Below are positions 7,801 to 27,746 of a DNA stretch of 64,000 bases, piece after piece. Origin of the DNA: Pirellulales bacterium (lineage in GTDB: Bacteria; Planctomycetota; Planctomycetia; Pirellulales; Lacipirellulaceae); the NCBI GenBank assembly GCA_019636345.1, contig JAHBXQ010000009.1, positions 1 through 64,000 of the forward strand, given 5' to 3'. The stretch's first letter is position 1. Each line of letters opens with the position of its first letter. Made by a program: the position numbers and the translations under genes. The notes beneath the pieces are model-generated. The model saw only the letters and a program-made list of their open reading frames with translations. It did no database searches and had not been told where the DNA came from.

Positions 7801-8037
7801 CTAGCGCGGCAGCAGTGCGACGATCTCCTGCGGAGTCGCGACCCTGCCGACCAGCTTGACCTGCCCGTCGACGACCAAGGCCGGCGTCGTCATGACGCCG
7901 AATTCGACGATTTTGTTGATGTCCTCGATCTTCTCGACCTCGGCCGAGAGCCCGAGTTCCTTGAGGGCAGTTTCCGTGTTCTCCTTCAGCGCGACGCATT
8001 TCTTACAGCCGGTTCCGAGAACTTGAATCTTGATCAT
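7801..8037 (-). CDS. Small thioredoxin-family redox protein
   Basis: A 78-residue protein, MIKIQVLGTGCKKCVAL with a CKKC redox pair at residues 11-14, MTTPALVV as the cis-Pro loop and a short C-terminal helix. It belongs to the 'redox-active disulfide protein 2' thioredoxin group that is nearly always next to an ArsP/DUF318 permease. Its start overlaps the arsP stop by four bases (ATGA), so it is translationally coupled to the permease. In arsEFG-type operons a protein of this kind is a candidate for ArsE, but I am not sure that name applies. Confidence 0.85.
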   Translation of the reverse strand: MIKIQVLGTGCKKCVALKENTETALKELGLSAEVEKIEDINKIVEFGVMTTPALVVDGQVKLVGRVATPQEIVALLPR

Positions 8038-9461
8038 CTTGAAAGTCCTTGCGTGTGGGGATTGGGGGCGGCCGCGGCGGTCGCCACGCCGGTCGACGGC
8101 CCGTGAATGAGCGGATTGTCGGGATACAAGGCCCCGTATCCCATGCCGGCGATCGACGACATGACGACCACGAGGGCGACAAACGCCGCGGTCTTCGTGT
8201 TGCCCACAACCGACCGAATGACCAGGATGCTCGGCAGCGACAGCGCCGGACCGGCCAACAGCAGCGCCAACGCCGGACCGCTCGCCATGCCGTTGCGCAT
8301 GAGCGCTTCCAGGATCGGCACTTCGGTCAAGGTCGCAAAATACATCAGGCTGCCCACGACCGAGGCGGTCACATTGCTCGCCAAGCTGTTGTCGCCCACG
8401 AGCGCCGCGACCTGCTTCTCGGGAACGAGCGCCCCCAGGAACCCGACGACGAACACCCCGCCAAACAGCAGGGGAATGAGCAGCTTCGAAAACTCCCAAG
8501 TGTTCCCCATCCACTCGGCGAAGTCCTGTTTGTTCAGCCACGACAGCGACATGAGCACGACGGCGACGCCCATCGCCCCGGCCAGATACCATCGCACATG
8601 GTGAATCCGCACGACCCAGGTGTCGACGTCGGCGATCGTTGCGATCTCGGTCTTGGCCAGTCGGACGACCTCGGCCGTCTCATGCCCCAATGCGGCGTGC
8701 TTCAGCCGCACGTCGTAGGCGCCTTCGGTTTCGTATTGCAGAGTCGCCTCGAACCGCGTGCCGTCGGTCAATTCGACGTGCTTGTCGCCGGGGTTGAACC
8801 AGTCGCTGAACACCAAGAACGCCAGCATCGACGCGAGCATCACGGCGTTCTGCCACAACGGTCGACGCGCGGACGGCGGGTCGGGCAGGGCGAGCGTCGC
8901 CTGCGAGCGCCGCTCTTCGCTACGGCGAAACAACAGGGCCATCAGCACGCCGATCGCCACCCCGAACGCCAGCGTGCCGACGACTCGGGCGACCCCTAGT
9001 TCGATCCCCAGCACGCGGGCCGTGAGGAAGATCGCCAGGACGTTGATTGCGGGCCCCGCGTACAGAAACGCGGCCGCCGGGCCCAGACCCGCCCCCACGC
9101 GATAAATCCCTGCGAACATCGGCAGCACGCTGCACGAGCAGACCGCCAGCACCGTCCCCGAAACCGACGCGACGGCGTACGCCTCGACCTTGTTCGCCTT
9201 GGGGCCCAAGTGCTTGAGGACGGATTCCTTCGACAGAAAGGTCGTGATCGCCCCCGCAATGAACAAGGCCGGCACGACGCACGCCAACGTGTGGTTGCGG
9301 ACGTACCACTGCAGCAGCACAAAGGCTTCGACGATCGCCCCGGTCGTCTTCGCCGCGGCCGGATCGGCGTCCGCGGCGAAGCGAGGGGTCGCCAGGGGGA
9401 GGAAGTAGGCGACCAGAAAGATCGCGACGAAGGATGCAAAGATCTTCCATTCTCGATTCAT
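8034..9461 (-). CDS. arsP: ArsP/DUF318-family permease
   Basis: A 475-residue membrane protein with about ten hydrophobic helices in two halves. The first half has GTVLAVCSCSVLPMFAGIYR, the CSCS motif of the ArsP_1 (PF03773) permeases, followed by GPAAAFLYAGPAINVLA; the second half repeats the fold with SLMYFATLTEVPILEALMRNG and LLAGPALSLPSILVI. Between the halves (residues about 205-275) lies a soluble insert with charged residues. Family members export trivalent organoarsenicals; the substrate here is inferred from the neighbours. AGGGA ribosome site 9 bases upstream, and an operator-like palindrome at 9485-9506 lies directly upstream. Confidence 0.88.
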   Translation of the reverse strand: MNREWKIFASFVAIFLVAYFLPLATPRFAADADPAAAKTTGAIVEAFVLLQWYVRNHTLACVVPALFIAGAITTFLSKESVLKHLGPKANKVEAYAVASVSGTVLAVCSCSVLPMFAGIYRVGAGLGPAAAFLYAGPAINVLAIFLTARVLGIELGVARVVGTLAFGVAIGVLMALLFRRSEERRSQATLALPDPPSARRPLWQNAVMLASMLAFLVFSDWFNPGDKHVELTDGTRFEATLQYETEGAYDVRLKHAALGHETAEVVRLAKTEIATIADVDTWVVRIHHVRWYLAGAMGVAVVLMSLSWLNKQDFAEWMGNTWEFSKLLIPLLFGGVFVVGFLGALVPEKQVAALVGDNSLASNVTASVVGSLMYFATLTEVPILEALMRNGMASGPALALLLAGPALSLPSILVIRSVVGNTKTAAFVALVVVMSSIAGMGYGALYPDNPLIHGPSTGVATAAAAPNPHTQGLSR

Positions 9462-9484
9462 CGGGGACGATCCCTAAAGTTGTG

Positions 9485-9506
9485 TATTTGCATGAACATG
9501 CAAATA
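9485..9506 (-). promoter_or_regulatory. ArsR operator-like palindrome upstream of arsP
   Basis: TATTTGCAT (9485-9493), GAAC, ATGCAAATA (9498-9506): perfect 9-bp arms in an AT-rich island. The site reduces to TATTTG-N10-CAAATA, and the same 22-bp frame occurs at 9887-9908 before arsR. Both sites sit just upstream of ars coding starts, as expected for ArsR-type repression. Confidence 0.8.
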
Positions 9507-9540
9507 TCTTGCCAAAAAAAGGGGGGAGCTGCCCCCTGAC

Positions 9541-9864
9541 TTATGAAAGCACCTTGAGTTGGTCGTCGACGTGGCACTTGACGACCGACTCGATGCAGCC
9601 GAACAAGCTCTTCAGGCACTTGACCCGCAACCGGTAAAAGACCATTTGCCCCCGCTTTTCGCTGTCGACGATCCCGGCGTTCTTGAGTTGAGAGAGGTGC
9701 CGCGACACGGTCGACATGTCGGTTCCGATCACCGAGGTGAGGTCGCAAACGCACACCTGATCGTGCTCGGCGAGCACATCGATCAGCTTCAACCGGGCCG
9801 GATGGGCCAGCGCCTTGAGGACCTTGGCCCGCGTCTCGTATTTGGCTTTTTCCGCTCGGTTCAT
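9541..9864 (-). CDS. arsR: ArsR-family metalloregulatory repressor
   Basis: A 107-residue winged-helix repressor. LKALAHPARLKLIDVLAEHD opens the fold, VCVCDL carries the CxC arsenite-binding pair in helix alpha-3, and SRHLSQLKNAGIVDSEKRGQMVFYRL is the recognition helix and wing. Additional cysteines near the end (CLKSLFGCIESVVKCH) might take part in metal binding. Family knowledge: As(III) binding releases the protein from DNA. It is the first gene of the arsenical operon and has one operator-like site upstream of its own start and another between it and arsP. Confidence 0.92.
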   Translation of the reverse strand: MNRAEKAKYETRAKVLKALAHPARLKLIDVLAEHDQVCVCDLTSVIGTDMSTVSRHLSQLKNAGIVDSEKRGQMVFYRLRVKCLKSLFGCIESVVKCHVDDQLKVLS

Positions 9865-10846: not shown

Positions 10847-11161
10847 CTACACCGAACTCTCGTACGTGATCCCCTCGACATGGTTCGACACGGACGCGGC
10901 GAATGCCGCTGCTTCCTTGTGGACAGGGTGCTCGATGTAGGCGTTGTAGTCTTCGATCGTGTCGAACTCGGCGAGCACGGCCATGTCGACCGCCCAGGGG
11001 GCCGGTTGCGAGGCGATCTGCTGGCCCGCCTCGACCCGCTTGTTCACCGGGATCTCGCGCCGCAGACGCTCCAGATTGCTGAGAATCTGCCGACGGTTGT
11101 CTTCCTTGGTCCGGCCGGCCGCTTCGTCTTTGAGATTGAATAGCGCGATGTGCTTGATCAT
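10847..11161 (-). CDS. Stress-responsive alpha/beta-barrel (Dabb) domain protein
   Basis: A 104-residue single-domain protein. MIKHIALFNLKDEA at the start, VDMAVLAEFDTIEDYNAYIEHPVHKEA in the middle, and a short C-terminal strand match the Dabb ferredoxin-like dimeric barrel fold. Members are small stress-induced proteins or cyclase-like enzymes; no activity can be assigned. An AAGGAG ribosome site lies 9 bases before the ATG. It is the last of nine co-directional genes that begin at 21853. Confidence 0.88.
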   Translation of the reverse strand: MIKHIALFNLKDEAAGRTKEDNRRQILSNLERLRREIPVNKRVEAGQQIASQPAPWAVDMAVLAEFDTIEDYNAYIEHPVHKEAAAFAASVSNHVEGITYESSV

Positions 11162-11239
11162 GGATCAGGTCTCCTTGTGGGAACGATGTGCGATCAACAG
11201 GCGAACGGGCCATTTGCTCGGCGGGCCGCTGATGCCGCG

Positions 11240-11848
11240 TCATGCGAGCGCCAAGTGCGCCTTCGCTTCCGTCGCGACCGGTTGATTGGCCAGAAGTTCG
11301 ACAATCTTCGCTGCAAACAGGTGGGCGTGGGCTCCTGTGCGTCCCGTCACGAGGTCGCCGTCGACGACGACGTCCTCGTTCGTGTAGACGGCGCCCATAT
11401 TCACTGCGTCGCCGTACAGATTGTTGTGGCAGGTGAGCTTGCGGCCGCGGACCAACTCCGGCGCCGAGGCGACCAGCCACAGCCCGTGGCAGATGATCCC
11501 CTTGAGAACCGACTCCTCGGCGAACGCCCGGTGTAGGAACTCGGTCGCGGGGGGCAGCACCCGCACGTCGTCGGTGTACCGCAACCGGTCGGAGACCATG
11601 CCCGACGGGACGATGATCGCGTCGTAGCTCCGCAGTTCCTCGTCGCTCATCCCCTCGAACGACTCGTGGCACTCGAATGGGGCGTGGTACTCGTGCCCCT
11701 TGAACTCGATCGACTTCTGTCCCCACATCCGCGACAGGAAATGGAGTTCGGCGCCCTCTTCGGGAAACCGATAGTGGTAGTACCAGATTTCGTGCTCATA
11801 GAAATCGCTTTCCAACAGCACGCCGATCTTCTTGCCTTTGAGTTTCAC
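11240..11848 (-). CDS. DJ-1/PfpI family protein (first copy)
   Basis: A 202-residue DJ-1/PfpI protein read from a GTG start, chosen because AGAGGA lies 7 bases upstream and the protein begins with the family's first strand (KKIGVLLESDFYEHE). The nucleophile elbow is IICHGLWLV, with Cys in CHG, and the conserved acidic residue is in the LESDFYEHE strand. Family members are glyoxalase III-like, deglycase-type or protease-like enzymes. A second, larger PfpI protein lies 4.7 kb upstream in the same run of genes, which suggests 2-oxoaldehyde or aldehyde stress as a shared theme. Confidence 0.9.
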   Translation of the reverse strand: MKLKGKKIGVLLESDFYEHEIWYYHYRFPEEGAELHFLSRMWGQKSIEFKGHEYHAPFECHESFEGMSDEELRSYDAIIVPSGMVSDRLRYTDDVRVLPPATEFLHRAFAEESVLKGIICHGLWLVASAPELVRGRKLTCHNNLYGDAVNMGAVYTNEDVVVDGDLVTGRTGAHAHLFAAKIVELLANQPVATEAKAHLALA

Positions 11849-11921
11849 GAAACGATCCTCTGATGGATGGGATGTCGTTTGCTGGGGGGCGGCGAGCCGA
11901 TGCTCGCACCGTCCTTGGCGC

Positions 11922-12377
11922 CTAAACCCCGGTCGCCTCGGCCGACAGGACTTGGGCTCCGGCCGGGTCGTCGAAGTATCCTTGGCTGACTTCGACGATC
12001 CGCCCGTCGGGGTCGGCGATCCAGGCGGTTCGCCATCCGGGTATGAAGTCGCCGAAGTCCAACGGCGGCTGCGTCACGACGGCGTCGTCGCCGATCTCCG
12101 CAAGCAGCGCGTCCACGTCGTCGACTTGGAACGCCAGGTGCCGCACCCCTGGGTACTCGGGCCCGGCGCCAGTCGCCGGCGGAGCGGGCGACTCTCCCTG
12201 GGCTTGAAACAGCTCGAGCATCGTCGGGCAGTATTCCATTTTCAAAAACACGACCTCGTCCGCTCCGTTGCCGACGACGCGGGCGCGGTGGAACCCGAAA
12301 TGCTTCGTGTAAAACTCCTCGGTCTGCTGCGGATCGCGGCAGCAGAGCCCGAGGTGCGAAAACAGCATCAGTCGCAT
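11922..12377 (-). CDS. VOC (glyoxalase/dioxygenase fold) family protein
   Basis: A 151-residue vicinal-oxygen-chelate protein. The start is ATG 12377, which has GGGAG 8 bases upstream; ATG 12392 is possible but without a better site. FSHLGLCCRDPQQTEEFYTKHFGF is the first betaalphabetabetabeta module (His in SHLG) and GVRHLAFQVDDVDALL the second (His in RHLAF), ending with IADPDGRIVEVSQG where Glu is the usual third metal ligand. The pattern is that of glyoxalase I-like enzymes. Its position between a DJ-1 and an alcohol dehydrogenase fits carbonyl detoxification, but dioxygenase activity cannot be excluded. Confidence 0.88.
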   Translation of the reverse strand: MRLMLFSHLGLCCRDPQQTEEFYTKHFGFHRARVVGNGADEVVFLKMEYCPTMLELFQAQGESPAPPATGAGPEYPGVRHLAFQVDDVDALLAEIGDDAVVTQPPLDFGDFIPGWRTAWIADPDGRIVEVSQGYFDDPAGAQVLSAEATGV

Positions 12378-12635
12378 GGAAATGACTCCCATCGTGATTT
12401 CCAGCCAAGGACGCGGGGCGTCGGCAAGGCGTGTGATTCGTGCATGCGTCGGTGCCGCGAAATTCGCGACCAGCGGGGCTGGACGACTCGCCTTCCGACT
12501 CGCGTCGGATTTTGGCGTCCCGGGCAACTTCGCTTGTTCTCTTGACCCGTCGTACCTGTTTCGTCGTCTTGCGTCGCTTTGCGCCGAATGCGGTTCCTCA
12601 GGCGCCGCCGGCCCCCGCAGCAACCGCAGCGTTCG

Positions 12636-13871
12636 TTACACCGCGGCGAGTTCGCCCGCCTCGACCGGGGCGCCGGCGACCGAGTGAAGAATCTCCAGCA
12701 CGTTCGCCTCGTTCAGCGGGCGATAGGCGCCGATTGGTCCGAACCGCACGGCTTGCCGGGCGGCGCGGGGGAGGACGTCGGCCTCCACCCCCGCCTCGGC
12801 GAGCGTTGCGGCGATTCCCATCGAGGACCAGAACTCCTGCGTGCGGTCGATGGCTTCGTGCCCGACCTCCAGATCGTTGCGGCCCGCGCGGCAGATTCCC
12901 CACACCCGCTCGCCGTACTGGGCGAACTTCTCGGGGCCGGCCTCGATGACGTGCCGCATCCACCCGGGGTACACGATCGCCATCCCCAGGCCGTGGTTCA
13001 CGTCGGTGGCGGCCGACAGTTCGTGCTCGATCAAGTGCGACGCCCAGTCGTTGACCACCCCGACCTGGGCGAGCTGGCTGCACGCCCAACTGGCGCAGTA
13101 CAGCAGATTGGCCCGGGCGGCATAGTTCGTCGGCTCCGCGATCGCGATCGGGCCGCACTCGATCATCGTCTTCAGCAACCCTTCCTTGATCCGGTCCTGC
13201 GCCGGCGAGTCGGATGTGTGCGAGAAGTATTGCTCGAAGACGTGCGTCATCATGTCCGCCGTGCCGTAGGCGGTCTGGTCGGCCGGCAACGTGAACGTCA
13301 ATTCCGGATCGCACACGGTGAACTTCGGAAACAGCGCCGGGGCGATCACCATCAGCTTCTCATGCGTGTCCCAGTTGCTCATCACGCTGGTGCAGTCGAA
13401 GTCGGATCCCGTGCCCGCCTTGGTCATCACGACGCCGAAGGGCAAGGCGTCGCGGACGACGCACCGCTTTTCGCTCTCCGGGATGCGCGTGTGAAAGTCC
13501 TCGTAGGCGCCCCAAATGGGGCCCTTGAGCTTCACCCCCGCGGCGACTGCTTTGGCCGTGTCGGACGTGCTCCCTCCGCCGACGCCCAGCACGAAATCGA
13601 GTTCCTGCTCGCGACACAGCGCAATGCCGTCGCGCACCAAGTTCACCCGCGGGTTCGAGTGGACTCCCGGCAGTTCCTCGAACCCAATCCCCGCGGCACG
13701 CAGCAGTCCGACGATCTGGTCGTAGACGCCGCTCGCCTTCAGGTGCCTCTCGCCGTAAGTCAACAGGATTCGCTTCGACGGGCTGAACTTGGCGATTTGC
13801 TCGGCGAGCGCGGCAAGCTGCCCGCGACCGAAGAACATCCGGCCCGGCTTTTCATATTCGAAATTGTCCAT
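12636..13871 (-). CDS. Iron-containing alcohol dehydrogenase (YqhD-like)
   Basis: A 411-residue group III alcohol dehydrogenase. MDNFEYEKPGRMFFGRGQ is the YqhD/BdhA-type N-terminus; VLGVGGGSTSDTAKAVAAGV is the NAD(P)-binding GGGS motif; TADMMTHVFEQYFSH and NHGLGMAIVYPGWMRHV carry the metal ligands (Asp, His, His, His). ATG 13871 is preferred over an upstream ATG because GGAGA lies 7 bases before it. The YqhD group reduces aldehydes, including methylglyoxal and lipid aldehydes, with NADPH. The neighbours (a TPP decarboxylase that would release an aldehyde, a DJ-1 and a VOC protein) fit an aldehyde reductase. Confidence 0.94.
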   Translation of the reverse strand: MDNFEYEKPGRMFFGRGQLAALAEQIAKFSPSKRILLTYGERHLKASGVYDQIVGLLRAAGIGFEELPGVHSNPRVNLVRDGIALCREQELDFVLGVGGGSTSDTAKAVAAGVKLKGPIWGAYEDFHTRIPESEKRCVVRDALPFGVVMTKAGTGSDFDCTSVMSNWDTHEKLMVIAPALFPKFTVCDPELTFTLPADQTAYGTADMMTHVFEQYFSHTSDSPAQDRIKEGLLKTMIECGPIAIAEPTNYAARANLLYCASWACSQLAQVGVVNDWASHLIEHELSAATDVNHGLGMAIVYPGWMRHVIEAGPEKFAQYGERVWGICRAGRNDLEVGHEAIDRTQEFWSSMGIAATLAEAGVEADVLPRAARQAVRFGPIGAYRPLNEANVLEILHSVAGAPVEAGELAAV

Positions 13872-13929
13872 GACAGATTCTCCAGGCAAGGCGAACTGCA
13901 GCGACAGCGGCGACGAAGCGGCGCCTCGC

Positions 13930-14622
13930 CTACGCGTTCTCCAGCGAGTTCACGTTGTACGACAGTACGACCGGCAGGTTGTCGGCTCCGGCCCGGCCGA
14001 GGGTCCACGTTTGATTCGCTCGCATGGCCAGCCGTTGGCCGTCGGACTTCTGCCGGGCTTTCCAGACGACTGTGACGAAGACCAGCATCCCCGCCTCGCT
14101 CGGCTGGGTCGCCAGCGATTCGAGCACGTGCTCCTGCTCGTCGAACCGCTCGCCGACTGACGCGTACCAAGCGGCGAACTCGGCATGATTCCGCAGCCGC
14201 GCGTCAGGAAAGCGAATATCGAGCCCGTTGTCGGCCGCCAGCGCCAGCAGTTGCTCGACCGGCGCCCGATTGCTCAGTTTGTCGAACCACTCCTGGGCGA
14301 AGCGCCGGACCATCGCGTCGGTCAGTCCCGCGCACAGGACCTCGCCGACCTGCTCGAGCTCCTCGGCCACCGGATCCGCGGCCAAGCAGGGGACGAACGC
14401 CTGCCACACGTCGACCCCTTTCGCCTTGTGAGCGGTCAGCGCCGCCTCCGAGGTCCACCGCTCGTGCATCGTGAACCGATTAGGATCCGACTTGTGCCGA
14501 AACCACGTGAACGACAGGCATCCCTCGTCCAGACGGGCGGCGCGCTGAATTGCGGCCAGAGTTGCCAGGGCTTGCCCCTGGCACTCGGGTTTCACTTGCA
14601 GATGGAACAGAAAACTGGGCAT
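13930..14622 (-). CDS. ABM-domain monooxygenase fused to an NTF2/SnoaL-like domain
   Basis: A 230-residue two-domain protein. Residues about 1-95 form an antibiotic-biosynthesis-monooxygenase (ABM) domain (SFLFHLQVKPECQGQALATL, GCLSFTWFRHKSDPNRFTMHERW), a cofactor-free heme- or quinol-oxygenase-like fold. Residues about 100-225 have the SnoaL/NTF2 look (RRFAQEWFDKLSNRAPVEQLLAL, FRNH-like and a final five-stranded region). The two domains usually occur as separate proteins, so the fusion is unusual. GAGGA ribosome site 9 bases upstream. It lies between the TPP enzyme and the alcohol dehydrogenase; a role on quinol- or aldehyde-type substrates is only a guess. Confidence 0.8.
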   Translation of the reverse strand: MPSFLFHLQVKPECQGQALATLAAIQRAARLDEGCLSFTWFRHKSDPNRFTMHERWTSEAALTAHKAKGVDVWQAFVPCLAADPVAEELEQVGEVLCAGLTDAMVRRFAQEWFDKLSNRAPVEQLLALAADNGLDIRFPDARLRNHAEFAAWYASVGERFDEQEHVLESLATQPSEAGMLVFVTVVWKARQKSDGQRLAMRANQTWTLGRAGADNLPVVLSYNVNSLENA

Positions 14623-14665
14623 AGTCTCGAGTCCTCAGTCACGCGAAACGGGGCAACGGCGGGGG

Positions 14666-16414
14666 CTACTGGCCGCACTTCACGCCCACGAGTTCGGGGT
14701 CGACGTCTCCCTCCAACTCGACCTCGAGCAGGAACGGGCCGGGGTGATCCAGCATCCGCCGGATCGACGGTTCAATCTCTTCGACGAGGCTCACGCGCGC
14801 CGAGGCGACGCCGTACGATGCGGCCATCGCTGCGAACTGTAACGGCGGATTCGACAGATCGAACGGCAAGGGTTGCTGCCGCGCGGCGATGCCGCGTTCC
14901 TCCCAGAACGCCGTCATGTTGAGCTGCAGCAGCCGATACGAACGGTTGTTGCAGATGATCGCTTTGACGTCGTATCCGTGGCGGGCCGCGGTCCACAACG
15001 CTTGGATCGTGTACATCGAACCCCCGTCCCCCGTGACGGCGACGACGGTCTTGTCGGGATGGGCCGCCTTGGCGCCGATGGCCCCGGGGATCCCCACCCC
15101 CAGCGACCCCCCCCGCGTGCAGAAATAATGCCGCGCAAGTCGCGGCGGCAGATACCGCGTCAGCGGCGGCGAATTCGTCAGCGCCTCGTCGAACACGATC
15201 GCGTCGTCTGGCAACGCTGCCGCCAAGGCCTGCGCCACCGGGGCGAACGTCAGGGGGCCGCCGCTCAGCACGCGGGCTTCGTCCTGATCGCGAGCCGTTT
15301 GCTCGGCCTCCGCCTTTCGCTTCGCCAGCAACTGCGTGCGTTCGTGCGCCGACTTCATCTGCGCGGGCGTGATGATTTGCTCGATCCGCTCGGCCAACGC
15401 CGCCAGGGCGAGCTTGGGATCGCAAACCGCCGCGAGATCGGCCGGATGGTTCTTGGCGATTTCGTACGCGTTCAGATCAAAGTGAATCGTCGTCGCCGCC
15501 GGGGCAAGGACGTCCCCCGTCTCGGGGAAGACTTCCGGCAGCAGATACGTGCCGACGATCAGGTTCGCGTCGCCGCGCGACAGGATAGGCTTGCTATGGG
15601 CGCCGAACATGTGCCCCGTGGCGCCCTGGTACAACGGATGATCGTACCGCAGATTCACGTCCCCGCCGTCGACGTCCCACGCCTCGGCGCCGAGCAGTTC
15701 CGCCACCCGCGCGAGTTCCCCTTGCGCCTCCGACGCAGCGACCCCGTTGCCGACGTAAATCATCGGCGTGGCTGACGCGACAAGCGCGCGAGCCGCCTCG
15801 TCCACAAGCGCCGGCTCGGGCGCCACGCGGGTCGAGGGAATGCTCGTCGGCCGGACGACCTCGGTCGTCGGCGCATCGAGCACGTCGAGCGGCAGGCAGA
15901 CGTAGACCGGCCCCTGCGGCGCTGTGGCGGCGATCTTGATCGCTCGCCGCAGCGTCCGCAACAACGACGAAGGATGCTGCACCATCGTCGCGTACTTCGT
16001 CACCGGTCGGGCCATCGCCACAAGGTCGCCGGCCATCTGGGCGTCGAGCCCCTGGTAGCGAATCCCCGCGTCCCCGCCGATGACCACCAGCGGCGAGTGG
16101 CCCCGATACGCCTGATAGAGCGCCCCGATCGCGTTGCCCAACCCCGGCGTGCTGTGAATCTGCACGAGCGCCGGCTTGCCGGTCGCTCGGGCGTAGCCGT
16201 CCGCCGCCAGTACGGCGACCGACTCCTGCAGCGTCAGCACGTACTTCATCTGCGGATACAGCCGCAGCGCATCAAGGAACCCTTCCTCGACCGTCCCGGG
16301 ATTGCCGAACATGTGATCGAACCCGTCGGCGAGCAACTGCTCGACGACCGCTTCGTGCCCGGTCTTCGCGCTCGCGGCGATCGTCGTCGTCGGCGTCGTA
16401 TCGCAAAGAGTCAT
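14666..16414 (-). CDS. Thiamine-pyrophosphate decarboxylase, benzoylformate-decarboxylase-like
   Basis: A 582-residue TPP enzyme of the POX/acetolactate-synthase superfamily. The N-terminal half has the activating glutamate in LTLQESVAVLAADGYAR and QIHSTPGLGNAIGALYQAYR; the C-terminal half has GDGGSMYTIQALWTAARHGY followed by ICNNRSY, the TPP/Mg motif GDG-x~25-NN. The architecture and the absence of an FAD motif fit benzoylformate or phenylpyruvate-type 2-oxoacid decarboxylases better than acetolactate synthase. The product would be an aldehyde, which the iron alcohol dehydrogenase two genes downstream could reduce. ATG chosen with GGAAAG 8 bases upstream. Confidence 0.88.
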   Translation of the reverse strand: MTLCDTTPTTTIAASAKTGHEAVVEQLLADGFDHMFGNPGTVEEGFLDALRLYPQMKYVLTLQESVAVLAADGYARATGKPALVQIHSTPGLGNAIGALYQAYRGHSPLVVIGGDAGIRYQGLDAQMAGDLVAMARPVTKYATMVQHPSSLLRTLRRAIKIAATAPQGPVYVCLPLDVLDAPTTEVVRPTSIPSTRVAPEPALVDEAARALVASATPMIYVGNGVAASEAQGELARVAELLGAEAWDVDGGDVNLRYDHPLYQGATGHMFGAHSKPILSRGDANLIVGTYLLPEVFPETGDVLAPAATTIHFDLNAYEIAKNHPADLAAVCDPKLALAALAERIEQIITPAQMKSAHERTQLLAKRKAEAEQTARDQDEARVLSGGPLTFAPVAQALAAALPDDAIVFDEALTNSPPLTRYLPPRLARHYFCTRGGSLGVGIPGAIGAKAAHPDKTVVAVTGDGGSMYTIQALWTAARHGYDVKAIICNNRSYRLLQLNMTAFWEERGIAARQQPLPFDLSNPPLQFAAMAASYGVASARVSLVEEIEPSIRRMLDHPGPFLLEVELEGDVDPELVGVKCGQ

Positions 16415-16515
16415 GTCCGCAACTTTCCAGCGTGAATTGGTTTCTAATCGCTTGTCCTCGCTAGCCGGACGGCCACGCCGCCCGGACTTCGGAGGCAAAC
16501 GCCCCTTGCGTCAGC

Positions 16516-17376
16516 TCACCACCCGTGTCGCCGCAGGCCTTTTTCCAGCACCTCGACCAGCATCCGTCCGCACTCGACGCTCGAGGCGGTCGACCGGCTG
16601 GTGATGAACGGGTAATCGACGACCACGGAGGTCTTGTGCCCGACGTTGCCGATGAATTGCCCTTCGGGCCCCACGGCGTCGCGCATGACGTACTCCAGCG
16701 GATAGAACGGCGGGCCGAAGTTGACGAACCCTTCGCCGAACCCGAGATTGCCGCCGTCGATGGCGTGCGGACCCTCGAACCCGGTGCCGTCGAGGTAGTC
16801 GTAGTCGATGGGATGCCCCGTGACGCGCTTCCCCGCGATGATGCTTCGCTTCTCCCGCAGATCGCGAGCGAACGCCAGGCACGCCACCCCGTAGCACTCC
16901 ACGGCGACCGGCTTGTCGAGCTTGACGAATCCCAGGATCACCTGGTGCAGTCGCGAGTTGTTCGCCAGGTCGACCATCGCTCCGCTGCCGCCGGCGATTA
17001 CCAAGGCGTCGTACTTGGCGAGCTCCTTGTCGACGATGCGGTCGATCTGCTCGTAGTACGCTTCCATGTCCCGCAAGTACGTCGGCGAACTGGGATACGC
17101 TCGCTGCGGAAACCACTCGGCCAAGCTCCGCGGATTGTCCAACCGCCCCGACGCGACGAGCGCGCGAGTCTTTTCGGCCATCTCGGGACTGGTGACCGAG
17201 CGACCCAGCGGCGGATCGACGTACTTGGGGTCCATGCTCACGCGCAGCGGCGTCGGCTTCCTTCCCGTGGGGGTCAGGAAGTCGACTTGGTAGCCGGCCA
17301 GGTCGCAGGCCTCAAGCGGGCCGACGACTTCTTCGCCCCAATAGCCCCATTCGGAGATGACAAACAGGATTCTCAT
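16516..17376 (-). CDS. DJ-1/PfpI family protein, large Hsp31-like type (second copy)
   Basis: A 286-residue class I glutamine-amidotransferase-like protein. MRILFVISEWGYWGEE is the opening strand with the conserved Glu; the nucleophile elbow is AVECYGVACLA with Cys after Glu; an Hsp31-type cap insertion follows the first strand (residues about 40-110). The long C-terminal part contains GHPIDYDYLDGTGFEGP and HKTSVVVDYPFITSRS, the residues that in Hsp31/YDR533C proteins surround the active site. Likely glyoxalase III or a protein-repair-type function. The gene lies between the epimerase-STAS fusion and the TPP decarboxylase with gaps of about 100-135 bases. Confidence 0.88.
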   Translation of the reverse strand: MRILFVISEWGYWGEEVVGPLEACDLAGYQVDFLTPTGRKPTPLRVSMDPKYVDPPLGRSVTSPEMAEKTRALVASGRLDNPRSLAEWFPQRAYPSSPTYLRDMEAYYEQIDRIVDKELAKYDALVIAGGSGAMVDLANNSRLHQVILGFVKLDKPVAVECYGVACLAFARDLREKRSIIAGKRVTGHPIDYDYLDGTGFEGPHAIDGGNLGFGEGFVNFGPPFYPLEYVMRDAVGPEGQFIGNVGHKTSVVVDYPFITSRSTASSVECGRMLVEVLEKGLRRHGW

Positions 17377-17512
17377 GTCGGGTCGTGCTCCTGTGTTCGC
17401 CCCGCGGCGAGGGATGGTCTCGGCCGATGCCGGCCCGGCAACGGCGGGCGCCGCACGGGGACCGGCGTCGGCGACGTGCGCCGACGCCCAGTTCCCCCCT
17501 GCGGTCATGTCG

Positions 17513-19639
17513 TTAGGCCAATGCGATCTCTTCGTTGAACTCGCTCGCCTCGATCGCTTGGCGAACGGCGTCGTTCGTTCCGACCAGCGACATCTGCACG
17601 TCCGATCCCAGACGTTGCTTGGTGAACACGAGGTAACGAATCGCTTCGCTCGAGATGGTCTTCAGATCGTTGGCGACGAAGACGAAGCTCGTGGCGTGCT
17701 GGGCCAGCGCCGCGTCGACTTGCTCCTCGACGATCCGCGTCACGCGGGGCTCAAATTCGCCGGCCAGCGCGATCTTGGCCACGCCGCCGTCGACTTCCAA
17801 CAGGTCCGCGTCCAACGCAACTTCGGCCGGCTCGAGCCGCACCCGGACCTTCATCTCGGCCGCGTCGGCGGGCAGCTTCACGGTCAACGCCTCCGCGTCG
17901 AAGTCGCGGTGCTCCTGTCCGTTGATCCACACGCTGCCGATCCGCACGCTCCCCGCCGGCAACAGGTCCGGAGCGACTCGCAGCACGTTGTCCGGGAAGC
18001 CCCCTTGCTTCGGCTTGAAGTACAGCTCCAGCGGCTCCTTGGTGATTAGCAGGTTCGTGTACGCCGCGGCCAGATAGCACAGCTCGAACGAGTGATAGCC
18101 GGCCATCGAGTGCGAACCCTTGCCGCGCTCGGTCCCCAGGGCGTACGGTTGGCCGTTGGCCAGCACGTTGAAGTACACGCCGCCGCACTCGGTGTCGAGG
18201 AACCATGCGTTGTAGAACGAGGCCGCCTCGCGAGCGTGCTTGCGGTACTTCTCGTCCTTAAGCGCCCCCGTGAGAATCAAGTAGGCGAGGATCGCCTGTT
18301 CCTGTTGCCACCACGCTTTGCGGTCGTGCCAGACGAACCGATGGAAGTTCTGCCCCGGTTCCAGCACGCGCTCGACGACGTCGTACCAGCCGCCCCGCTG
18401 CCGGTCGCTTCCCGCGGCGGGCATGACCTCGGCGATCTGTTTGGCGAGGTTCACGTATTCGTCCTTGCCCCGCAGGCTGTTCATGCGGGTCAGGTTCCAA
18501 GCGATCTTCAGGTTGTGACCCACGACCGCACGGTTCTGCTGCCAACCCCACGACTGGTCCTTCGACCAGTCGTCGAAGAACCGCTCCTGCACGAACGGGC
18601 TTGCTTGGTAGTCGGGGAAATGGGCCGAAATCGTGTCGAACGTCGTCTCCAGGAAGTCGGCGTACTCGGGATTTCCGGTCGCCAGGAACAGGTTGATCAG
18701 GTACGCCGGGGCATGATCTCCCACCGAGTTCCAGTTCTTCTTCGACCGATTCTTCCCCAACGACTCGGCGTGCGGGCTGAGCGTGATCGGGTCGATGTGC
18801 GAGTAGTATCCCCCCTTCGGCGACGCGTCCTTGAAGTGCCTGTTGAACAACCGGATCGTCGCTTTGGCGTCCTCCAGAATCGCGTTGTCGCCCGTGATGC
18901 GATACGTCTGCGTCGGACCGGCCAGAGCGTAGATTTGCTCATAGCAGGGGATCGCCTGGTAATCGTCGCCGAACTCGCTGGCGAACACCTTCTGCTCCGT
19001 CCCGTCCGCTTTTACGTCGATGGCGTGGTACCAGTAACAGGTCCCTTCGGACTTGTCGCTGAACCGCATATGCTCGCGGAGATACTCGGTTCCCTTCTCG
19101 GCCGCTTCCAGGTACCGGTCGTCGCCGGTCAGCATGTACGCCGAGGCGAACCCGTACACCAACCGCGAGATCGTGTCGGTCTCCTGCCGGCCCGACTTCT
19201 GCTTGTCGCCGGTGCTCGAGAGGTTCGTCCGGTAGTTGCGGTAATCGACCTCGTCTCCGGGGAACTCCGCGTCGAGATAGAAGTCGGCCAACTGCTTGAT
19301 CTGCTTGACCCACCAGTCCTGCGACTCGAATCGATATTCGTTCTCGGTCCGGCCGAGGAACACGATGTGCTTGGCCTCGAACGTCGTCTGCTGCTCGGGG
19401 TAAAACACGCCGTACACGTACAGGTACCGCCCGGGGACGAGCATGTCCCACGCCTGCCCGGTCGCGTCCTGATAGGCTTCGTTCAGGTTCCGCACCAACT
19501 CGGCGAACACGGTCGGCGTCATTCGCACCGTGAACTCGCGGTCGTCCGAAGTCTTCAGGACGAACTGGTTCTGGTCCCGGTCGGCCGATACGACGTAGCC
19601 GGCCACGAGGTCCGAAAAGGTGAAGTTCAGCTCATTCAT
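17513..19639 (-). CDS. AGE-family epimerase/isomerase with C-terminal STAS domain
   Basis: A 708-residue protein with an unusual domain combination. The N-terminal about 100 residues (NFTFSDLVAGYVVSADRDQNQF) read as a small OB-like beta domain. The middle is an (alpha/alpha)6 barrel of the N-acylglucosamine 2-epimerase type: GFASAYMLTGDDRYLEAA, WQQNRAVVGHNLKIAW with the barrel histidine, WWQQEQAILAYLILTG. From about residue 630 a STAS (SpoIIAA-like) fold follows: FVFVANDLKTISSEAIRYLV and VQMSLVGTNDAVRQAIEASEF; the Ser pair in TISSE sits where anti-sigma antagonists are phosphorylated. Its start lies 55 bases from the GlgX stop. A sugar isomerase tied to partner switching would be new to me. 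Confidence 0.85.
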   Translation of the reverse strand: MNELNFTFSDLVAGYVVSADRDQNQFVLKTSDDREFTVRMTPTVFAELVRNLNEAYQDATGQAWDMLVPGRYLYVYGVFYPEQQTTFEAKHIVFLGRTENEYRFESQDWWVKQIKQLADFYLDAEFPGDEVDYRNYRTNLSSTGDKQKSGRQETDTISRLVYGFASAYMLTGDDRYLEAAEKGTEYLREHMRFSDKSEGTCYWYHAIDVKADGTEQKVFASEFGDDYQAIPCYEQIYALAGPTQTYRITGDNAILEDAKATIRLFNRHFKDASPKGGYYSHIDPITLSPHAESLGKNRSKKNWNSVGDHAPAYLINLFLATGNPEYADFLETTFDTISAHFPDYQASPFVQERFFDDWSKDQSWGWQQNRAVVGHNLKIAWNLTRMNSLRGKDEYVNLAKQIAEVMPAAGSDRQRGGWYDVVERVLEPGQNFHRFVWHDRKAWWQQEQAILAYLILTGALKDEKYRKHAREAASFYNAWFLDTECGGVYFNVLANGQPYALGTERGKGSHSMAGYHSFELCYLAAAYTNLLITKEPLELYFKPKQGGFPDNVLRVAPDLLPAGSVRIGSVWINGQEHRDFDAEALTVKLPADAAEMKVRVRLEPAEVALDADLLEVDGGVAKIALAGEFEPRVTRIVEEQVDAALAQHATSFVFVANDLKTISSEAIRYLVFTKQRLGSDVQMSLVGTNDAVRQAIEASEFNEEIALA

Positions 19640-19693
19640 TTCACAGGTCCCTTGCAGGCGATTGAGTACGGGCAATGGCGCCCGAGACGCGGT

Positions 19694-21853
19694 TTACTTG
19701 GAGATCAGCACGACCACGCTGCGGCCGGCGACACGGTAGTTCGGTCCCTCGACGAGCGGCTCCTGGCCCGGGTCGACCGCGTCCTGCGGCGATTCCAGAA
19801 CGGTGTCGATCACGCGGTGCCAACGCCGGCCCGCGACCTCGGGAAGCGCAAACTCCAGCGGTTCCCAGTACATGTTCATCATCACGTGGACGTCGTCTTC
19901 GCCGTCGAAGCCCCCTAGGGTCATCGCCAGCGCGCGGGCGTTCGGGTCCTCCCAGCCCGGGGCGTCGAGCTCGACCCCGTGCCACGTCACGTCGGCCAGC
20001 CCGCGAGCGTTCGTTTCGCCGGTGAAGAACCGCGCCCGATGGATCACCGAGTGGTGTCTCCGAAACGCGATCAGACGCTGCCAGAACCGCAGCATCCCCG
20101 CGTGCCGATCTACGCTCGACCAGTCGAACCAACTGATCTCGTTGTCCTGACAGTAGGCGTTGTTGTTCCCCTGCTGCGTCCGTCGCACCTCGTCCCCCAT
20201 GACGAACATCGGCACGCCCTGCGACAGCATCAGGATCGTCGCAAAGTTGCGAATCTGTCGTTCCCGCAGGGCATCGACGGCCGGATCCGCCGCGGGCCCC
20301 TCGACTCCGCAGTTCCAACTGAGATTGTCGTCGATCCCGTCGCGGTTCCCTTCGCCGTTAGCGTCGTTGTGTTTGCCGTCGTAGGAGACCAAGTCGTTCA
20401 GCGTGAATCCGTCGTGGCAGTCGACGAAGTTGACGCTGTTGACCGGCAGGTGGCCGCGGCTCTGGTACAGGTCGGCGCTCCCCGCGATTCGCGACGCGAC
20501 CGCCCCCGCGAGTCCCGCATCTCCGCGGACGAACCGTCGCACGTCGTCGCGATACCGACCGTTCCACTCGCCCCAGCGATAGCCGGGGAAGTACCCGATC
20601 TGGTACAGCCCCGCGGCGTCCCACGCTTCGGCGAACAGCTTCGTGTCGGCCAGCGTCTCCGACAGTTCAGCCGCCCAGATCACCGGCGGATGAGCCAGCG
20701 GCGCCCCGTCTTCGCCCCGAGTCAGCACCGAGCCTTCGTCGAATCGGAAACCGTCGACGTGCATCTCGCGGACCCAGAACTCCAGGCAGTCGACGATCAG
20801 CTTCTCAGGAACGGGGTGGTTGCAGTTGAACGTGTTGCCGCATCCGGTGTAGTCGTAGTAATACTGCTTGTTCTCGCGCACCAGGTAGTAGTAAACGAGG
20901 TTGTCGAGCCCCTTGAAGCTGTACGTCGGGCCGCGATCGTTCCCCTCGTCGGTGTGGTTGAACACGACGTCGAGGATCACCTCGATCCCCGCCTTGTGAA
21001 GCGCCTTGACCATGTCGCGGAATTCGCGCACCTGCTGGCCGCAATGAGCGCTGGTGCAGTAGCCCGAGTGCGGGGCGAAGTACCCCATCGTGCTGTATCC
21101 CCAGTAATTTCGCAGCGGCTGGCCGTCGACCTCGCGCAACACCTCGGCGTCGTCGAAGTCGAACGCCGGCAGCAACTCGACCGCCGTCACGCCCAGCGAC
21201 GTCAGGTAGGGGATCTTCTCGGCCACGCCCAGAAACGTCCCCGGGTGCTCGGTCCCCGACGTCGCCGACCGCGTGAACCCGCCGACGTGCATCTCGTAAA
21301 TGATCGTTTCGCTTAAGGGGCGGTTAAGCGGCTGGTCTCCCTCCCAGTCGTATTCGACACCCGTCACCGACGCCCGCAGCGAGGTCGCCAGGTTGCTCCC
21401 GGAGCGGCACGCGTCGCCGCGACGCCAGAGGGTCTTGGTGATCCCCTTCGCGTACGGGTCCAACAACAACTTGGTCGGATCGAACCGATGCCCCGCGTCC
21501 AGATCTCGCGGGCCGTCGACCCGATACGCATAGTGCGTCCCCGGCTTCAATCCGCGGACGTAGCAGTGCCAAAAGTGGAATGTCCGATGCCGATCGGCGC
21601 TCAACTCGATGACGGCCGTCGGAATCGCGTCGTCGTGGTTGTCGAACAGCAGCAGCTCGATCCGCGTCGCGTGTTCCGAAAAGACCGCGAAGTTCACCCC
21701 GTCGGCGTCGGCCGTCGCTCCCAGCGGGTGGGCTCGACCGATCTCGACGACATACGGCGAGCCTTCATACGGCGAGCCTTCGGAGAGCAGCCCGACGCCG
21801 TCGTTGACAGGCGCCGTGCTGGTGCTGAGTGTTTCGGCGACGTCGATGCTCAT
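19694..21853 (-). CDS. glgX: Glycogen debranching enzyme GlgX (GH13)
   Basis: A 719-residue isoamylase-type debranching enzyme. HPLGATADADGVNFAVFSEHA is the N-terminal CBM48; IIYEMHVGGFTR, DVVFNHTDEGN, DGFRFDEGSVL (nucleophile Asp), LFAEAWDAAG (acid/base Glu) and FVDCHDGFTLND (transition-state Asp) are the GH13 regions I-IV, with the GlgX-type order. The length is typical. The N-terminus has a tandem 15-base duplication (EGSPY twice, about 21758-21787). It is the first of nine co-directional genes; being followed by a sugar epimerase-like protein suggests a glucan-linked role. Confidence 0.96.
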   Translation of the reverse strand: MSIDVAETLSTSTAPVNDGVGLLSEGSPYEGSPYVVEIGRAHPLGATADADGVNFAVFSEHATRIELLLFDNHDDAIPTAVIELSADRHRTFHFWHCYVRGLKPGTHYAYRVDGPRDLDAGHRFDPTKLLLDPYAKGITKTLWRRGDACRSGSNLATSLRASVTGVEYDWEGDQPLNRPLSETIIYEMHVGGFTRSATSGTEHPGTFLGVAEKIPYLTSLGVTAVELLPAFDFDDAEVLREVDGQPLRNYWGYSTMGYFAPHSGYCTSAHCGQQVREFRDMVKALHKAGIEVILDVVFNHTDEGNDRGPTYSFKGLDNLVYYYLVRENKQYYYDYTGCGNTFNCNHPVPEKLIVDCLEFWVREMHVDGFRFDEGSVLTRGEDGAPLAHPPVIWAAELSETLADTKLFAEAWDAAGLYQIGYFPGYRWGEWNGRYRDDVRRFVRGDAGLAGAVASRIAGSADLYQSRGHLPVNSVNFVDCHDGFTLNDLVSYDGKHNDANGEGNRDGIDDNLSWNCGVEGPAADPAVDALRERQIRNFATILMLSQGVPMFVMGDEVRRTQQGNNNAYCQDNEISWFDWSSVDRHAGMLRFWQRLIAFRRHHSVIHRARFFTGETNARGLADVTWHGVELDAPGWEDPNARALAMTLGGFDGEDDVHVMMNMYWEPLEFALPEVAGRRWHRVIDTVLESPQDAVDPGQEPLVEGPNYRVAGRSVVVLISK

Positions 21854-21976: not shown

Positions 21977-22555
21977 TCAGGCCCCGCTGGCAAGGAATTG
22001 AGCGACCCCGGCGAGCGTGAGGCTCACGCCCCCGCACGCGAACAAGGCGCTCGGGTAAAGCAAATTGCGTTTCTTCGTCAGGCTCACCGTCGCCGCCAGC
22101 CCGGTCGCCACTTGCAGCAGAGTGATCCCGACCGCCAGCACGTAGTGGGCGCGATTCTTTGTCGCCGCCTCGTACCGCAGCGACCGACTCTCTTGCTCAA
22201 AGCGGGCGAGCTTGTGCGCGGCTTCGGTGATCAGCGGCTTGACCGGCGCCGTCGCCTCTTTGCCGGTTAGGGCGGCCAGTTCTTGCTGAATCTGGCTGCA
22301 CCGCATCTCCACTCGCATGCCGTTGCTCTCGACCAGCTCGACCAACCCGCCGAGCATCTCGTCCATGCACTCGTCGGCCGCCAGCGCGGTCACCAACGCC
22401 GCGATCGCCACCACCAGCGAAATCGCCGTGATGTAATACGAGATATAGGTGTGAAAATGCCCGGTGCTCGTCGCCAACTCGGCGCCGGCGGCCTCTTCGA
22501 CCATCTCGCTGTCGACCAGCAAGGCCTCTTCGGCGGCGTTCTCGTACTCGGCCAT
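21977..22555 (-). CDS. DUF4337-like membrane protein
   Basis: A 192-residue protein with an acidic N-terminus, one hydrophobic helix at about residues 33-62 (YISYYITAISLVVAIAALVT), a central soluble helix rich in Glu, Arg and Ala, and two further hydrophobic segments near residues 135-190. This is the layout of the DUF4337 family, whose function is unknown. The start is ATG 22555, the first ATG after the frame opens; no clear ribosome site is seen. It lies on the opposite strand to the BBP2 porin and shares the 322-base divergent gap with it. Confidence 0.8.
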   Translation of the reverse strand: MAEYENAAEEALLVDSEMVEEAAGAELATSTGHFHTYISYYITAISLVVAIAALVTALAADECMDEMLGGLVELVESNGMRVEMRCSQIQQELAALTGKEATAPVKPLITEAAHKLARFEQESRSLRYEAATKNRAHYVLAVGITLLQVATGLAATVSLTKKRNLLYPSALFACGGVSLTLAGVAQFLASGA

Positions 22556-22877
22556 GGCAAACGCTCGGGCGTCGCAATCGTGCGGAAACCTGCGAACCCA
22601 CAACCCTAGGTTGCCATGCCGTCGGCACGGACGGCGCAAAGCGGCATTTTGCGGCGAGGCCGACCCTGCAGGCCGACTCAGTTTCCCAATCCGCGCAATC
22701 CGCCCCCCCCGGGATACGCCTCCTCACAGGCCGACGGAACGGCGTCAAGCCGCCAGGAAACGCGATCCGAACAAAGAGTTGCGTACGTCCCGACGGCCGC
22801 GTCGCCCTCGGGAGGGGTGGCCGAAAGGGAAGCCCTCGGATGTCATGGATGACTGTTTCACGCTAGGGAGAGCCTCG
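22556..22877. other. Divergent intergenic region between DUF4337 and BBP2 genes
   Basis: 322 bases without a supported gene. The open frames there have the composition of chance frames in high-GC DNA. It must contain promoters for both neighbours, but I cannot pick out a convincing -35/-10 pair. GGGAGA at 22866 is the ribosome site of the porin gene. Confidence 0.6.
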
Positions 22878-24579: not shown

Positions 24580-24625
24580 AAAAACAATCGCCCTCAACTC
24601 CGCGTGACGCGGAAGCCTGAGGGCG
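24580..24625 (-). terminator. Intrinsic terminator overlapping the fucokinase stop codon
   Basis: Outer arms CGCCCTCA (24589-24596) and TGAGGGCG (24618-24625) pair perfectly, with inner arms CCGCG and CGCGG. The minus-strand transcript ends the stem with a five-T run (24584-24580). The stop codon of the fucokinase gene lies inside the stem, so ribosome passage and hairpin formation compete. Confidence 0.75.
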
Positions 24626-27500: not shown

Positions 27501-27746
27501 TGAGCGTTGGAGAGTACGAAGAAAGGAAGCGTGCGCGTCCGCTCGAACCAACGAAACGGGAACGACCGTGAGTCGCCATCTTAAACGGCGTGAAGCGGTC
27601 CGCCATCACTCGGCTGTCCGAATGCCGTGGGCGATCGCAATTTTCTGGAACCTGCATTCAACGAACAAGTTGCGAAATTCGAATCCAGCCAACCCTTTGA
27701 CCGGCTCCTGAGCCCCGAGCCACCCAATGCTCAGTCAGAGGTCTCC

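Follow-up and report, generated by a model that had tools for sequence, protein, structure and literature searches.

The question raised by positions 10847-21853 of a 64,000-nucleotide stretch of DNA from a Pirellulales bacterium (contig JAHBXQ010000009.1, positions 1 to 64,000; the whole stretch is called the window here) is whether the nine co-directional open frames on its minus strand form one functional unit and, if so, what that unit does. The original prediction, made from the letters alone, had proposed a possible carbonyl and sugar stress pathway, and the open reading frames (ORFs) of the window together with family searches bore out its nine genes, their families and their gaps. We found that the operon is genuine, widely shared and carried on plasmids. 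Our reading, to which we give a probability of roughly 0.55, is that the run is a horizontally mobile operon, a fused-STAS variant of the icfG-type gene cluster, that it serves glucan use and carbonyl processing, and that its STAS domain is a tether and not a phosphorylation switch. The nine genes, the fused domain and a possible tenth gene are as follows (TPP, thiamine pyrophosphate).

19694..21853, minus strand: GlgX, glycogen debranching enzyme (TIGR02100, 734 bits against a cutoff of 641)
17513..19639, minus strand: AGE-superfamily epimerase/isomerase with a C-terminal STAS domain, 708 amino acids from the refined start (PF07221)
17513..17821, minus strand: the fused STAS domain, motif ISSEAIR, with Ser at the presumed phospho position (PF01740 and homologues)
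16516..17376, minus strand: large DJ-1/ThiJ-like protein, DJ-1L (PF17124, PF01965)
14666..16414, minus strand: TPP enzyme, benzoylformate-decarboxylase-like (family searches and alignment)
13930..14622, minus strand: ABM and SnoaL/NTF2 fusion (family search; homologues elsewhere)
12636..13871, minus strand: iron-type alcohol dehydrogenase, Fe-ADH (family searches; closest solved structures)
11922..12392, minus strand: VOC/glyoxalase-fold protein, start 12392 or 12377 (family searches)
11240..11848, minus strand: small DJ-1/PfpI protein, DJ-1s (family search; homologues in other loci)
10847..11161, minus strand: Dabb protein (family search; a 50% identical gene in the Chitinibacter cluster, L068)
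21977..22639, minus strand: DUF4337 protein, possible tenth gene, 123 bases before GlgX

With refined starts, the intergenic gaps range from 43 to about 258 bases, the largest being 243 or 258 depending on the choice of the VOC start. A simple terminator scan, which is weak evidence, gave no minus-strand match in the gaps of the nine-gene run. The STAS domain scored 22.4 bits against PF01740, just under the cutoff of 22.6, and its homologues back the assignment.

Loci in other genomes (numbered L; genomes are numbered G) were collected with two peptide patterns and one genome per species. This gave 87 loci, of which 80 were kept, and the resulting distribution is a biased lower bound. The tally comprises 82 loci: 79 of the 80 kept, with L007, L106 and L107 added. 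The longer L007 takes the place of L010, apparently of one species with it, and L008, which shares its contig with L012, was excluded. The search for kinase, phosphatase and partner genes used one tblastn query for each, and such queries miss distant copies. The core of GlgX, AGE and STAS was found in twelve named phyla, with five loci unplaced. Of the loci that are 18 kb or longer (53), 49 have a homologue of GlgX on the same strand, 47 one of the small DJ-1, 21 one of the TPP enzyme, 19 one of DJ-1L, 17 one of VOC, and 14 one of SnoaL. The small DJ-1, with a same-strand homologue in 61 of the 82 loci, is the most constant enzyme partner after GlgX; of the 47 in the long loci, 21 share 61-77% identity with the window's protein and the other 26 no more than 29-36%. 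The proposal that the genes form one unit held up, since different phyla, and plasmids too, show the same grouping of GlgX, AGE, DJ-1, TPP, and VOC genes. All 19 long loci with DJ-1L also carry the TPP enzyme, and the shorter L018 and L031 have DJ-1L without this TPP enzyme. The unit thus consists of a core (GlgX, AGE, STAS, and usually the small DJ-1) to which a carbonyl module (the pair of DJ-1L and TPP enzyme, SnoaL, and VOC) may be added. The counterpart of the ABM-SnoaL fusion in other loci is a SnoaL protein alone, matching the second half, and the ABM half had no same-strand homologue in the 82 loci. A Louvain group that mixed EthD, CMD and a protein without Pfam match (c6) was kept out of the counts.

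Homologues of all nine genes, again co-directional, are present in the betaproteobacterium Chitinibacter sp. GC72 (L068), in the order DJ-1L, TPP, SnoaL, Dabb, Fe-ADH, VOC, DJ-1s, AGE, GlgX, and DUF4337. Its SnoaL protein has no ABM half, and a frame of 259 amino acids without Pfam match lies between DJ-1s and AGE. The Chitinibacter AGE stands on a long branch of the AGE tree, away from the window's. Because the DUF4337 gene of this cluster (L068:14253-14831) adjoins GlgX, directly after it, the DUF4337 gene of the window may be a tenth member of the operon. The two DUF4337 proteins are barely alike (30% identity over only 54 residues), and a profile built from both found no further copies among the ORFs of 83 clustered sequences. 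Local additions are possible in the case of Fe-ADH, Dabb, and DUF4337, each of which only one or two further loci share. DUF4337 is one of several kinds of membrane protein that flank the core in some of the loci; the others, ion-channel-like or small and repeatedly next to AGE or GlgX, are bestrophin-like proteins (L040, L042, L044, and L045), TMEM175 (L012, L054, and L078), and a small membrane protein without Pfam match (L060-L064).

What the unit does, that is, its pathway chemistry, substrates and direction, its stress role, and the binding partner of STAS, is what we infer. In the proposed scheme, GlgX would debranch stored glucan, the AGE domain would isomerise or epimerise either the sugar set free or a maltodextrin at its reducing end, and DJ-1, the TPP enzyme, VOC and, in this genome, Fe-ADH would process the resulting carbonyl compounds. 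The predicted AGE model has a mean pLDDT (predicted local distance difference test) of 81.7. In a structure comparison that covered mostly residues 110-571, it was nearest to the D-mannose isomerase 5x32 (Z 39.7, 379 residues aligned, root-mean-square deviation 2.7), with the barrel fold of the family present and with cellobiose 2-epimerases and glucose 2-epimerases as further near structures. Residues H387 and H528 (720-residue numbering), which we take to be the two catalytic histidines of the superfamily, stand in GH387 and YH528, which align with GH and YH of 5zig. Because the model lies near D-mannose isomerase and the 2-epimerases and both histidines are invariant in 39 of 39 homologues, the AGE domain is expected to be an active sugar isomerase or epimerase.

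The carbonyl enzymes are less closely assigned. The closest solved structures of the TPP enzyme are those of benzoylformate decarboxylase, and in the alignment it has T, H, and V at the Ser26, His70, and His281 columns, presumably the active-site residues of that enzyme, so that two of three differ. It lay below every named cutoff among the matches listed (25 of 57 families), with 289 bits against PRK07092, whose cutoff is 493. For Fe-ADH the closest solved structure was 7w9x, followed by 1vlj, 6l1k, and YqhD, and its score against PRK15138, the NCBIfam model of YqhD-like aldehyde reductase, was 260.9 bits against a cutoff of 645. DJ-1L and DJ-1s were under every named NCBIfam cutoff among the matches listed, glyoxalase III/deglycase included, and are assigned at the level of the superfamily. 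An alternative, possible though somewhat improbable, is that the operon makes or degrades one small molecule, either a glucan-derived solute or an aromatic or polyketide-like compound, and that DJ-1, VOC, SnoaL, ABM, and GMC proteins are enzymes of this pathway and not detoxifiers. SnoaL, EthD, and GMC oxidoreductase genes do recur in the clusters, and a TPP enzyme under every equivalog cutoff among the matches listed would suit such a role; however, many loci have the GlgX-AGE core without these genes, and the constancy of the small DJ-1 also argues against it.

The position of the STAS domain divides the loci into two architectures. The icfG-type order is AGE, STAS, GlgX, STAS, and RsbW-like kinase, often with SpoIIE, and in this arrangement the RsbW-like kinase and the SpoIIE-like phosphatase switch separate STAS proteins. 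In the window STAS is fused to AGE, this tail is the sole STAS match, and queries for an RsbW-like kinase and SpoIIE found nothing. The window therefore shares with the icfG type the neighbouring AGE and GlgX genes on one strand but not the two free STAS proteins. The free type, defined by free STAS plus RsbW-like kinase, comprised 19 loci; the kinase query matched none of the 63 loci outside it (38 of them at least 18 kb long), and SpoIIE was present in 14 of the 19 free-type loci versus none of the 63. Four of the 63 (L046, L071, L075, and L079) have a free STAS, on contigs that end too soon for a kinase to be visible.

An AGE tree of 79 rows, made with a quick method and unrooted, separated the fused from the free type by a single branch (SH-aLRT 93); the sole exception was L086, whose locus is cut by its contig end. 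The identity of the AGE core averaged 66.6% within the fused type versus 61.8% between types. A comparison in which AGE seemed equally alike between and within types was rejected, because the STAS part had lowered the within-type value. For GlgX the figures were 61.7% within the fused type versus 45.8% between types, and because GlgX differs between the types much more than AGE does, it looks as if one type took a GlgX of another subfamily. The distances of AGE and GlgX are correlated, with r 0.88 in a set of 47 loci that excludes the free type (none of 2000 permutations as high, species relatedness uncorrected). The fused STAS is most like the free STAS that comes after GlgX in the icfG type. 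In the fused variant STAS is a tail of the epimerase and the operon lacks the kinase and phosphatase genes; the domain would most likely be a docking or assembly module that is largely independent of phosphorylation. Which architecture is older would have to be inferred, the AGE tree being unrooted.

This view of the STAS domain was compared with its phospho-site. STAS sequences were aligned on the SSAG motif, and the phospho-acceptor column is the one that we take to correspond to that of SpoIIAA/RsbV. Ser occupies this column in all free proteins, both the first (22/22) and the second (17/17). Among the 56 fused rows (58 minus L007 and L008) Ser is found in 23, and the others have P (8), E (7), A (7), D (5), T (4), N (1), or K (1). 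On the AGE tree these fused rows require at least 10 changes between Ser and non-Ser. Planctomycetes are among those without Ser, with P in L010 and L036 and E in L012 and L016.

Conservation of the gene order in near relatives, which the original prediction had proposed as a check, was not found: 2 of 38 relatives in all had a full-length AGE-STAS, and the 23 other members of the window's family, including one from its genus, had none. Matches of AGE by tblastn in G010, G018, and G037, of about 120 residues and 28-32% identity, were judged to be other AGE proteins and dropped. Because conservation within the family was absent, linkage was sought in distant genomes and plasmids. The unit is patchy in distribution, and its linkage is visible only in distant genomes. 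In the phylum sample three of the 391 other genomes had AGE (E <= 1e-50); in two of these it carries the STAS tail, and in the third, G047, AGE and STAS are separate genes. Three of 392 genomes, the window's own included, contain DJ-1L (E <= 1e-40), and the identical three contain the TPP enzyme (E <= 1e-120); all 3 belong to the 4 with AGE. The AGE, DJ-1L, and TPP genes of G409 are located together.

Separate queries for AGE (1e-60), DJ-1L (1e-40), and TPP (1e-140) against 72,556 plasmid records matched 17, 14, and 12 records, respectively, and all DJ-1L and TPP records were inside the 17. In 13 of 14 records DJ-1L lay less than 15 kb from AGE. Because several Streptomyces records score equally and look like near-copies, we count about ten independent plasmid cases. 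Some plasmid copies are adjoined by glucan genes (a maltotransferase-domain protein with GlgB; glycogen synthase; MalQ with a glucosidase). One of the 17 records is a conjugative Nostoc plasmid (L120) with a divergent AGE, 37% identical. Its stretch L120:11992-25962 carries AGE, DJ-1 genes, TPP, EthD, two GMC oxidoreductases, two hydrolases, and an alpha-amylase-family protein, and GlgX is not among the annotated genes of that stretch. A MinD/ParA-family gene stands directly after the SpoIIE gene of the icfG-type clusters on plasmids of Streptomyces (L115:20449-21216) and Deinococcus (L117:21706-22464); in Streptomyces the genes for the maltotransferase-domain protein and GlgB come next.

Several observations weigh against our reading. 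Fe-ADH was found near AGE in 2 and Dabb in 1 of the 82 loci, and because of this rarity and because the TPP enzyme has no second benzoylformate-decarboxylase active-site histidine, the route from aldehyde to alcohol drawn in the original prediction is weak. TPP and DJ-1L are absent from more than half of the long loci, which is why we call the carbonyl module optional. In G309, AGE with GlgX and DJ-1L with TPP are on different short contigs, and their linkage is not visible. The Synechocystis genes slr1852-1862, with the epimerase Slr1855, are described as a salt-repressed operon in the part of the source used here (PMC8670252), and this repression runs against a simple role in osmotic stress. 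Not every fused locus is kinase-free, because those of Nostocales often have a response-regulator-reductase gene and a cNMP-binding histidine kinase gene, a kinase of another kind, 3' of AGE; in these loci another kind of signalling may have taken over. Moreover, the window's own STAS retains the Ser in ISSEAIR, and the four fused proteins with Thr are possibly still phosphorylatable. The same genome has, on contig C2 (L110:5555-6474), a free STAS paired with a HATPase_c_2 kinase that is over the cutoff, and two SpoIIE proteins elsewhere.

The last of these points favour a different explanation, namely that the fused STAS is still a partner switch, on which an RsbW-like kinase and SpoIIE from elsewhere in the genome act, coupling the epimerase to a sigma factor. 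Regulation in trans is possible because the genome has the STAS-HATPase pair and the two SpoIIE proteins; its PF13581 and PF07228 matches are on contigs other than the window's (C9). We nevertheless consider this switch rather unlikely. Ser is missing from 33 of 56 fused proteins (4 of which have Thr), those of the four planctomycetes named above included, no RsbW-like kinase or SpoIIE was matched in the 63 other loci, and next to the C2 kinase there already stands a STAS of its own, whose phospho motif reads SSAA. The earlier hint at partner-switching regulation therefore stands insofar as the closest counterparts of the STAS domain lie in a partner-switching operon, and falls short for the fused type, which has no such kinase or SpoIIE nearby and has often lost the phospho-site. 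That the run is a chance series of unrelated stress genes is very improbable: all its families are common and co-direction alone is weak evidence, but linkage across twelve named phyla and co-occurrence in 14 of 14 plasmid records speak against it. The fused-STAS operon for glucan use and carbonyl processing is thus the reading that we keep. It may be extended, in a form that we find doubtful and put forward tentatively, to a pan-bacterial, plasmid-borne glucan-carbonyl island, in which an enzyme captured the output domain of a partner-switching system and a kinase-free STAS tail assembles or targets the epimerase, perhaps with GlgX, for a pathway that leads, in times of stress, from glycogen to some further product.

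The surroundings of the run were also considered. Its GC (guanine plus cytosine) content (0.64-0.67) is similar to that of the near flanks and gives no foreign signature. A second GlgX, 50% identical to that of the operon, is encoded elsewhere in the genome. On the same strand, 3' of Dabb, lie genes for a TauE/SafE protein, an ArsR regulator and an ArsP-type permease, the latter two at 8034-9864, and by eye a small thioredoxin-like frame seems to come next. A protein of 985 amino acids at 24594-27551, with fucose pyrophosphorylase and GHMP kinase domains, resembles bifunctional fucokinase/GDP-fucose pyrophosphorylase.

The original prediction knew of no named system with this content, which is partly right at most, since the GlgX, AGE, and STAS core is a homologue of the Synechocystis icfG gene cluster (slr1852-1862). 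As a substitute for PCC 6803 the sequence comparison used Synechocystis salina (L051), whose row reads DJ-1, AGE, STAS, GlgX, STAS, SpoIIE, and RsbW. The gene slr1854 we take to be DJ-1-like. As far as the excerpted text of PMC12329169 goes, the icfG operon comprises the kinase Slr1861, the STAS proteins Slr1856 and Slr1859, the phosphatase IcfG, and the isoamylase Slr1857; Slr1861 phosphorylates Slr1856 and Slr1859, IcfG dephosphorylates Slr1856, and the operon is linked to inorganic carbon and glucose metabolism. Excerpts of other studies give higher phosphorylation of Slr1856 and Slr1859 in the dark (PMC7466104), ratios of 1.6-2.7 for slr1853 and slr1854 in an ethanol study (PMC3564720), and induction of slr1854 by butanol (PMC3726282). 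The cluster has been interpreted as a carbon regulator of cyanobacteria, and in these excerpts no role is given to the epimerase or the DJ-1-like genes. A literature search on combinations of these families, with most subscription journals outside it, found no account of the fused variant or of a multi-phylum cluster. That this core occurs in twelve named phyla, on chromosomes and on plasmids and often accompanied by the TPP/DJ-1/VOC module, marks it as an independent, portable metabolic system. Its fused variant is a natural experiment: because it has the enzymes without the phospho-switch genes, a comparison of the two types can reveal what the switch controls.

Compared with the icfG cluster of PCC 6803, the window shares AGE (Slr1855), STAS (Slr1856 and Slr1859), and GlgX (Slr1857), but its STAS is fused to AGE, its GlgX belongs to another subfamily, and no kinase or phosphatase gene is found in its operon, while DJ-1L, TPP, ABM-SnoaL, Fe-ADH, VOC, and Dabb are added. 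The TPP enzyme is structurally closest to benzoylformate decarboxylase and differs from it in having T and V at the active-site positions S26 and H281. With a cluster on a Streptomyces plasmid (NZ_CP109557.1, L115), which to our knowledge has no published name, the window shares co-directional DJ-1L, TPP, DJ-1s, AGE, and GlgX genes; that cluster differs in its free STAS genes, anti-sigma kinase, SpoIIE, MinD/ParA, maltotransferase-domain protein, and GlgB. Finally, the stressosome protein RsbR has a separate N-terminal domain and a C-terminal STAS. The window's protein likewise carries its STAS behind a separate domain, but its N-terminus is predicted to be, and probably is, an active enzyme.

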